DNA of 64,000 bases from an uncultured Poribacteria bacterium (GTDB lineage: Bacteria; Poribacteria; WGA-4E; PCPOR2b), in the NCBI GenBank assembly GCA_958296125.1, contig OY282444.1, positions 620,001-684,000 of the forward strand. The letters run 5' to 3'. Position 1 is the stretch's first letter. Each line of letters opens with the position of its first letter. The notes beneath the pieces are model-generated. The model did no database searches, had not been told where the DNA came from, and saw only the letters and a list, made by a program, of their open reading frames with translations. Shown in pieces: positions 15,592 through 17,756 of the stretch. A program made the translations under genes and the position numbers.

Positions 15592-15776
15592 TAGTTACTC
15601 ATACGAAAGAGAAAAGTTTTATTAAATGAGGGGTGTGTATTATTATCTGAACCACGGATTCGACGGAAAATACGGATGAGTCCAATTGGGAAACCACAAG
15701 TTGCTTTGAATCCCGAACACCCCTCTATTAAATAAAGTCGTGACATCTCCGCGTTTCATCTTCAGGAGAAGCAACT

Positions 15777-16415
15777 ATGAGAACTTCAGACATAAGAAGA
15801 CTCTACTATATTACACATATAGACAACATCCCCTCCATTCTTGAAAGGGGAATTCTTTCCCATGAAAAGATTACAGCAGCACATATCCCGTACACTCCAA
15901 TTTACGACAATTCAATTGTTGAAAGGCGTGGGGGCATATCCACTCCTGAAGGAAGAAGTCTCTGGCACTACGCAAACCTGTTCTTTCAACCTCGTAACCC
16001 AATGCTGTATCGCGTTATTAATACAGTAGGCAGACAGAATCTCGCTGTTTTAGGCGTTGAAAACACGGTATTGCAAGAGCAAGGAATTTTTATCACAAAC
16101 GGCATCGCTGCCAACGAATTAACGCGAATTCACCCTCAACCCGAAGGGCTGGAAATGCTTCAGACACACCAGGAAATTATTCAGTCCACCTCATGGATTG
16201 CGTGGAATGATTGTGAGGAATTAAGGCGTAAATTGATGGCAGAATGTTTAGTGCCTGATCAGGTCAATTCAGAACATATTCAGAGGTTTATCGTTGCTGA
16301 CCATGATGTTGCAAAGTTAATTCAGGATCGCCTGGATCGCCTATTACCCTCCAATCGTTGGAAACTTGTTGCGGACGATGTGGGAAGCAATATATTCACG
16401 CCATCGTTTGACTGA
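15777..16415 (+). CDS. darT: DarT-type DNA thymidine ADP-ribosyltransferase (DUF4433), stand-alone
   Basis: A 212-residue DarT-family toxin. It starts RRLYYITHIDNIPSILERGI, matching the NAD-binding start of DarT. FFQPRNPMLYRV follows, with Arg73 at the conserved arginine position of the NPRNPM motif. The segment KLMAECLVPDQV carries Glu156 at the position of the catalytic glutamate. DarT modifies thymidine bases on single-stranded DNA with ADP-ribose from NAD+, blocking replication; such systems act in phage defence. AGGAGA precedes the start. It is followed 123 bases later by a second DarT domain fused to a macro domain. It carries no antitoxin of its own, so its control may depend on that neighbour. 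Confidence 0.85.
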   Translation: MRTSDIRRLYYITHIDNIPSILERGILSHEKITAAHIPYTPIYDNSIVERRGGISTPEGRSLWHYANLFFQPRNPMLYRVINTVGRQNLAVLGVENTVLQEQGIFITNGIAANELTRIHPQPEGLEMLQTHQEIIQSTSWIAWNDCEELRRKLMAECLVPDQVNSEHIQRFIVADHDVAKLIQDRLDRLLPSNRWKLVADDVGSNIFTPSFD

Positions 16416-16435
16416 AGATTAAATTTGTGTTAAAC

Positions 16436-16464
16436 TTGCTATGTATCCGTAACCAATATATAAG
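16436..16464 (+). promoter_or_regulatory. Candidate promoter for the DarT-DarG fusion gene
   Basis: TTGCTA at 16436-16441 and TATAAG at 16459-16464 are separated by 17 bases in the gap between the two DarT genes. This would give the fusion gene its own promoter in addition to read-through. No strong Shine-Dalgarno sequence is seen before 16539, only AAGAGA. Confidence 0.4.
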
Positions 16465-16538
16465 TGAAGTATTGCTAAAGATGGAGAAACATTTTCCAAT
16501 TCAACAAAGCAAAAACAGTTATTGAAAAGAGAAAAATA

Positions 16539-17735
16539 ATGAGGATAGAGAGACTCTACTACATTACCCATATAGACAACTTACCCTTGATTATTAAGCA
16601 CGGAATTCTTTCCCACGAAAGAATTGAAGTAGAAAACGTGCAGGGAATTTCAATGTTTAAAAGAGAAAAGGATAAAAACGAGAATGTCAAAAGAAAAAGT
16701 AATACTTTGCCCAAAATTTGTGGAAAAAATCTCTTGCATTATGCCAATCTGTTCTTTCAACCCCGTAACCCCATGATGTATCGAGCTATCTTTGAAAACA
16801 GTGCAGAAAAGCTTGCCGTTCTGGAGATTGATAACACAGTTTTGAAAGAACAAGGAGTCGTTATCACAGACGGAGATGCCGCCAATGAGATAACACAATT
16901 TTATCGTCCATCCGAAGAAACGAAAATCCCTCAGCAACTGTGGACAATTATTAAGAACGAATGGTGGAAGGAGTGTGACGGATCAAAACGCAAAATCATG
17001 GCGGAATGTTTGGTGCCTGATGGTGTCAAGCCTGAATACATTCGATCGGTTATCGTTGCCGACGATGAAACAAAAAATGGGGTGCAGGGATTAATTGACA
17101 AGCCTCAACTCCCTATTATTCGTAAACCCCACCTATTCTTTCAACCCCAGCGTCGAATTGAGATCGGCGACAACATTTTGCTTGTTGACAGCGGGGATAT
17201 ATTTTTCTCTGAACTACAAACATTAGCAGTTACAGTTAATCTTCAGGGCGTTATGGGAAAAGGGTTAGCACTGCGCGCTAGAGAGCAATTCTCCGATGTT
17301 TATGTAGAATACGAGAAAGCGTGTCGTGCGAAGAAAATCACATCAGCACGCCCTTATATCTATAAGCGCGAGGCATCAGTTGCAGATGAGTTGACAGATC
17401 TTAAGCCTAACAGGCCGATCAAAAATCCGGTGAAGTGGTTTTTGCTTTTCGCGACAAAGCGGCACTGGCGAACACCATCGCGTTTGGAGGATATTGAAAA
17501 CGGGTTAAAATGGATGCAGAAGAGCTTTCAAGAAGCAAAGATTGAATCATTCGCAATGCCGGCACTAGGGTGTGCATTGGGGGGCTTAAGCTGGACAGAG
17601 GTAGCACCGCTGATGTGCAAGTACCTCCATGGAATAGGAATACCCGTCGAAATCTATCTGCCATGGGAACACCCAATAGAGGAACAATACTTGACCGAAT
17701 CATATCTCTTGGCGGGTCAACTCGAATTGTTGTAA
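16539..17735 (+). CDS. DarT-DarG fusion: DNA ADP-ribosyltransferase plus macro-domain hydrolase
   Basis: A 398-residue two-domain protein. Residues 1-200 are DarT: ERLYYITHIDNLPLIIKHGI, FFQPRNPMMYRA (Arg76) and KIMAECLVPDGV (Glu156). Residues 207-398 are a DarG/TARG1-like macro domain: DSGDIFFSELQTLAVTVN, GVMGKGLALRAREQF, ATKRHWRTPSRLEDIENGL and FAMPALGCALGGLSW. Macro domains of this group remove ADP-ribose from DNA thymidine, reversing DarT. The C-terminal DarG extension normally found after the macro domain is missing. Residues 40-55 form a Lys/Glu-rich insertion absent from the first DarT. Toxin and antitoxin activities would thus be joined in cis, and the protein could also neutralise the stand-alone DarT upstream (inference). 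Confidence 0.85.
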   Translation: MRIERLYYITHIDNLPLIIKHGILSHERIEVENVQGISMFKREKDKNENVKRKSNTLPKICGKNLLHYANLFFQPRNPMMYRAIFENSAEKLAVLEIDNTVLKEQGVVITDGDAANEITQFYRPSEETKIPQQLWTIIKNEWWKECDGSKRKIMAECLVPDGVKPEYIRSVIVADDETKNGVQGLIDKPQLPIIRKPHLFFQPQRRIEIGDNILLVDSGDIFFSELQTLAVTVNLQGVMGKGLALRAREQFSDVYVEYEKACRAKKITSARPYIYKREASVADELTDLKPNRPIKNPVKWFLLFATKRHWRTPSRLEDIENGLKWMQKSFQEAKIESFAMPALGCALGGLSWTEVAPLMCKYLHGIGIPVEIYLPWEHPIEEQYLTESYLLAGQLELL

Positions 17736-17756
17736 CATTTTTAGGAGGAGAGAAAG

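Follow-up and report, generated by a model that had tools for sequence, protein, structure and literature searches.

Characterized DarT toxins ADP-ribosylate thymidine in single-stranded DNA, a reaction that is reversed by the macro domain of DarG (PMC5179494, PMC11481870). The isolated macro domain is enough as an antitoxin against Thermus aquaticus DarT, and hydrolysis by Thermus aquaticus DarG is impaired or abolished when K80, N22 or K29 is changed (PMC5179494). In other systems, the C-terminal domain of DarG, a mimic of single-stranded DNA, adds DarT binding, and phages carry antitoxin mimics against DarT (PMC11481870). The target motifs of DarT enzymes differ: the Thermus aquaticus enzyme has TNTC, that of enteropathogenic E. 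coli TYTN (PMC8385414, PMC13368585). The latter enzyme is attenuated by a G49D change in its NAD+-binding loop region (PMC13368585).

These systems come in several forms. In two-gene DarTG2 systems, such as those of Thermus aquaticus, Mycobacterium tuberculosis and enteropathogenic E. coli, toxin and antitoxin are encoded by separate genes. In DarTG1 systems, DarT1 is paired with a NADAR antitoxin. Thermosipho africanus DarTG (PDB 7omu; according to its Foldseek entry, a complex with ADP-ribose released in 2021) is a single polypeptide of about 400 residues with DarT at its N-terminal and a macro domain at its C-terminal end.

The locus compared with described DarTG systems

The window, meaning the whole stretch of 64,000 nucleotides that was analyzed, is part of a 5.16-Mb single-contig genome of an uncultured, sponge-associated bacterium (Candidatus Poribacteria). 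It encodes a stand-alone DarT (the solo) followed by a DarT joined to a macro domain in a single chain (the fusion), both as intact open reading frames (Table 1).

Table 1 Features of the solo-fusion locus, in window coordinates
Feature	Coordinates	Strand	Support or remark
Cassette, absent in three congeners with collinear flanks (empty site)	15592..17744	.	L131-L133
Upstream non-coding cassette end with imperfect 20-nt inverted repeat (15617-15636 / 15717-15736)	15592..15776	.	
Solo DarT of 212 aa, a presumed toxin (DNA thymidine ADP-ribosyltransferase)	15777..16415	+	Pfam DarT, residues 10-187, E 1.5e-40
Solo Arg51	15927-15929	+	invariant in 9/9 solos
Solo Arg73	15993-15995	+	invariant in 9/9 solos
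Solo Glu156	16242-16244	+	invariant in 9/9 solos
Intergenic spacer between solo and fusion, 123 nt	16416..16538	+	8/9 tandem loci: 113-135 nt; remaining locus: 86 nt
Fusion of DarT and macro domain in one chain (398 aa), as in Thermosipho africanus DarTG	16539..17735	+	end-to-end match to PDB 7omu (phmmer, residues 2-391), E 4.2e-107; Foldseek E 2.6e-31
Fusion DarT domain, residues 1-201	16539..17141	+	Pfam DarT, residues 7-201, E 3.1e-39
Fusion Arg76	16764-16766	+	
Fusion Glu156	17004-17006	+	
Fusion DarG-type macro domain, residues 207-398, presumed DNA ADP-ribosyl glycohydrolase antitoxin	17157..17735	+	PADLOC DarG, residues 216-383, E 2.4e-44
Fusion macro Asn234	17238-17240	+	aligned with N22 of Thermus aquaticus DarG
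Fusion macro Lys241	17259-17261	+	aligned with K29 of Thermus aquaticus DarG
Fusion macro Lys307	17457-17459	+	aligned with K80 of Thermus aquaticus DarG

An earlier sequence-only reading of this DNA had described two DarTs in a row, of which the second also contains a DarG-type macro domain with the motifs GVMGKGLAL and ATKRHWR. The profile searches it called for bear this out: DarT models match both proteins, macro and DarG models match the fusion, and both motifs are present in it. The Pfam Macro match (residues 298-359, E 8.9e-07) is over the Pfam cut-off. The NCBIfam antitoxin_DarG match (residues 217-384, E 7.6e-42) falls under the whole-protein cut-off of that model because only positions 4-157 of its 338 are matched; the chain stops after the macro domain, and the C-terminal DarT-binding domain of DarG is absent from the fusion. 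The conserved residues were also read correctly, as Arg73 (solo), Arg76 (fusion) and Glu156 (both) align with conserved positions. The counterpart of the solo Glu156 in Thermus DarT is the catalytic Glu160, as judged by alignment with the 7omv chain, which has 210 residues and apparently an Ala at the catalytic Glu position, its numbering being taken as shifted by one. Arg51 is clear in the solo; in the fusion it is displaced, with an Arg one or two columns off in a loop whose alignment is uncertain. In our own alignment, Ala346 of the window fusion occupies the position of G119 in Thermus aquaticus DarG, where tandem fusions have residues other than Gly and lone fusions have Gly.

The fusion is a known type of protein with a solved structure and is not new in itself. 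Its whole chain matches the single chain of 7omu, which leaves no room for a novel protein type, and the predicted fold is that of 7omu, with 44% identity in the Foldseek alignment. The structure predictions, made from shallow alignments, are weak (mean pLDDT 56 for the solo and 59.6 for the fusion) and were used only for this fold match. The sequence-only reading was thus mistaken in stating that known DarTG systems have separate genes, and its "new architecture" stands in part: the fusion was already known, and its pairing with an extra solo DarT appears to be new. It had also allowed for a sequencing error joining two genes. A frameshift or an assembly joint is out as the origin of the fusion, as ten relatives (59-68% identity) have the same chain and 7omu aligns with it from end to end.

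The window differs from the Thermosipho africanus system, which is not known to be paired with another DarT, in its second DarT gene 123 nt upstream, found likewise in eight relatives. This is an arrangement rather than a property of the protein family. Two-gene DarTG2 systems share with the window a DarT with a catalytic Glu and a DarG macro domain with equivalents of K80, N22 and K29, but they separate toxin from antitoxin, whereas in the window only the solo toxin is separate, and their DarG has the further C-terminal domain that the window lacks. As in DarTG1, a DarT-fold toxin lies beside an ADP-ribosyl hydrolase; however, neither window protein contains a NADAR domain at E values up to 1, although this domain is present in other Poribacteria. 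Single-chain relatives with no second DarT nearby are found in Chloroflexota, LCP-89, Sumerlaeota, Blastocatellia, Aerophobetes and cyanobacteria. The best plasmid matches are mostly two separate genes. A 7.5-kb phage record from human faeces (MT837167.1:795-1910) holds a DarT-macro-like frame that covers 98% of the fusion at 26% identity.

Distribution of the tandem arrangement

An intact solo lies directly upstream of a fusion in nine of the 85 genomes of the phylum, sampled at one genome per species (G000, G017, G018, G020, G025, G033, G037, G049 and G066). The window's genome is one of them, so that the search for the same two-gene pair proposed with the sequence-only reading yielded eight further Poribacteria genomes. 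No intact solo of the window clade was found without a fusion among these 85 genomes, and about 20 Poribacteria carry lone fusions without such a solo. Outside the phylum, no tandem pair was found in the stretches examined around nine related loci (eight fusions and one split pair) or in a 39-genome sample of another phylum. The pairing of solo and fusion thus appears to be a new arrangement conserved within Poribacteria.

Two further genomes carry tandem-type fusions. In G059, the fusion is accompanied by a 58-aa remnant of a solo; in G040, it lies at one contig end and a solo-like fragment at another, and the two may be one locus split by the assembly. Extra broken DarT copies are present in G012 and G025. 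We left out an 80-aa DarT fragment of G022, as it scores as the lone-fusion type. The nine tandem loci are not all independent gains because four of them, in relatives of one genus, share a genomic neighbourhood; the other five have no flanking gene in common in the stretches compared. In G012, an intact 219-aa solo of the lone-fusion type is followed by a broken DarT and then by a lone-type fusion (L032:3322-6022), a row of DarT copies that looks like an independent tandem.

Descent of the two genes and natural variants

In the DarT-domain tree (53 rows), the solos form one clade (support 100/100), and the tandem fusions form another, with the exception of L033. In the macro-domain tree (40 rows), all 11 tandem fusions group together (100/99). 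The fused state is probably older because the nearest outgroups are nearly all fusions, and the solo would then have arisen through loss of the macro part. In our reading of the alignment, the conserved tail of the solos, SNIFTPF, lies at about the same place as the linker motif FFQP of the fusions.

The eight orthologs of the window solo are 54-60% identical to it. Among the solos, dN/dS is about 0.14-0.30 for pairs with measurable dS; many of the dS values behind this and the other ratios given here exceed 1 and are rough. These values indicate that the solos are under purifying selection and that the solo is maintained as a working gene. It is highly improbable that the solo is a functionless, decaying by-product of duplication. 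Loci of this kind do contain decayed DarT copies, as the remnant in G059 and the broken copies in G012 and G025 attest, but the nine intact orthologs, with their invariant catalytic residues, conserved C-terminal tail and dN/dS around 0.2, do not look like decay.

The solo follows its partner's macro domain more closely than its partner's DarT domain. Solo distances correlate with those of the macro domains (Mantel r 0.67, p 0.0045) and less so with those of the DarT domains (r 0.42, p 0.056). The L033 fusion (G033) is a natural domain swap: up to about residue 200 its identity is 0.44-0.71 to the nearest lone group versus 0.28-0.56 to tandem fusions, and after about residue 240 it is 0.72-0.82 to tandem fusions versus 0.55-0.71 to lone ones. 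As the DarT half is of the lone-fusion type and the macro half of the tandem type, these identities indicate that the toxin half was replaced through recombination and that the solo kept the macro half as its neighbor.

A second variant is the L035 fusion (G066, one assembly), which reads IMAGC instead of IMAEC (codon GGA, E156G) while the solo Glu is intact; this locus would combine a solo toxin with a fusion that has an antitoxin role only. One could imagine that tandem fusions in general are becoming plain antitoxins, their DarT decommissioned and the solo taking over as the toxin, so that a fused system is splitting again. Besides E156G, H14N occurs in the L041 fusion and N67S in 5 of the 11 tandem fusions, none of the three being seen in the 20 lone fusions, and tandem fusions have gained residues in the same loop region where G49D attenuates the enteropathogenic E. 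coli enzyme (PMC13368585). However, Glu156 is kept in 10 of the 11, the DarT domain of tandem fusions evolves at a dN/dS of 0.13-0.32 (0.05-0.18 for the macro domain), and tandem and lone fusions have the same DarT/macro divergence ratio, 2.22, so that a general relaxation or decay of the tandem DarT domain is unsupported. We consider such a split unlikely.

Loop differences between the two DarT domains

Lone fusions have in common the ARTT loop WWNxxDGSKRKIMAEC and a second loop, IYxxxIVxxR. The solos keep the second loop, but their ARTT loop is changed to SWISWNxSxKxRRQLMAEC, with loss of the DGSKRK motif and a gain of about three residues. Tandem fusions, in turn, keep the ARTT loop; except in L033, their second loop, in the NAD+-binding loop region, is longer than that of lone fusions by about six residues. 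Since the loops of the two DarTs differ, their DNA target or activity likely differs as well.

This raises the possibility of two independent enzymes, with a self-contained fusion and a solo that now targets a different DNA sequence or base and is either under control from elsewhere or non-toxic, the pair widening the target range. The loop changes fall where NAD+ and DNA are handled, and known DarTs do vary in their target motif (PMC8385414, PMC13368585). Nevertheless, independence leaves unexplained why intact solos are found only beside a fusion and why the macro half stayed with the solo after the domain swap, and we regard it as rather unlikely, if the most serious of the alternatives.

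A proposed model of control in trans

Our preferred explanation, which we consider probable, is that the locus works as a toxin-antitoxin cassette: ADP-ribosylation by both DarTs is reversed by the fusion's macro domain, and the solo depends on the fusion in trans. The fusion would act as an ordinary single-chain DarTG, its DarT marking thymidines of single-stranded DNA and its macro domain taking the mark off. The solo would go back to a fusion duplicate whose macro domain was lost at the linker and would be an active second toxin with a changed ARTT loop. Having no antidote of its own, it would rely on the neighboring macro domain acting on ADP-ribosylated DNA, and a drop in fusion activity, by loss or titration of the antitoxin (plausibly upon phage infection or gene loss), would leave it unopposed. 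The chemistry, the toxicity and a role in phage defense are expected by analogy with characterized DarTG systems; control in trans and its release are plausible steps that we infer.

Dependence on the fusion's macro domain is suggested by the position of all nine intact solos of the clade directly upstream of a fusion, the swap in L033, the E156G change in L035 and the macro-linked Mantel signal. Because the fusion lacks the DarT-binding domain of DarG, it would have to protect from the solo through repair in trans. Such control by repair alone counts against this reading, as do the small number of loci (nine) and the fact that co-inheritance can be explained by physical linkage.

The sequence-only reading had gone further and proposed that the fusion guards the solo, with a phage protein inactivating the fusion and thereby releasing the toxin. 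The dependence of the solo would fit, and phage-borne antitoxin mimics against DarT exist (PMC11481870). However, we found no sensor part, phage link or defense island, and the flanking genes examined look metabolic. On top of the dependence that our preferred explanation also requires, the guard would need a trigger, of which we found no sign, and we consider it very unlikely.

We also put forward, tentatively, a wider history. A fused, self-neutralizing toxin-antitoxin would have been duplicated, one copy would have lost its antidote half and become a free toxin under the protection of the fusion in trans, and the pair would be kept as a unit in which the solo is partnered by the antidote half of the fusion and not by its toxin half, with the two toxins hitting different DNA motifs. 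If true, this would show how toxin-antitoxin systems gain dependence, as a partner-free fusion acquires a free toxin that needs a partner. Natural test cases are at hand in the relative with a dead toxin half and the relative with a swapped one, with lone fusions as controls, and DarT pairs with different loops offer material on how DarT picks its DNA target.

Borders of the cassette

Three congeners have flanks collinear with those of the window on both sides (80-87% identity) and carry an empty site: the aligned flanks lie about 23, 536 and 86 bases apart, versus 2.15 kb in the window. This comparison indicates that the cassette was either gained in the window genome or lost in the congeners. 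The upstream non-coding end is complete only in the window within the genus, with short repeated pieces elsewhere. Its inverted repeat was considered as the end of a mobile element or as an RNA and rejected, having no Rfam match, a fold that does not clearly surpass shuffles (z -1.5) and no full copy elsewhere in the genus. A 25-nt piece at 15692-15716 recurs widely across the genus, with a spacing of about 1.27 kb in contig C18 of G003.

The spacer between solo and fusion has no Rfam match. Its length is largely maintained across the tandem loci (Table 1) and a GTTAAT-like stretch in it is partly conserved, perhaps as a separate promoter for the fusion. A scan for promoters and terminators found no excess over shuffles.

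Other DarT architectures in Poribacteria

Several other DarT proteins were seen in the phylum. In G009, a 965-aa open reading frame (L124:1825-4722) joins two DarT domains and sigma-70 regions 1.2, 2, 3 and 4 in one chain, and is preceded by a NADAR-DarT1 antitoxin gene (L124:1114-1788; PF22397, E 3e-83). To our knowledge, there is no known example of a fusion between DarT and a sigma factor. In G030, a 748-aa chain on the minus strand (L125:1239-3485) combines macro, DarT and NADAR-DarT1 domains, that is, one toxin with two kinds of antidote. Finally, two WD40 beta-propeller proteins of 606 and 862 aa (L125:4824-6644 and L126:2182-4770, both on the minus strand) carry a DarT at their end, and similarly long DarT frames are found in several other Poribacteria.
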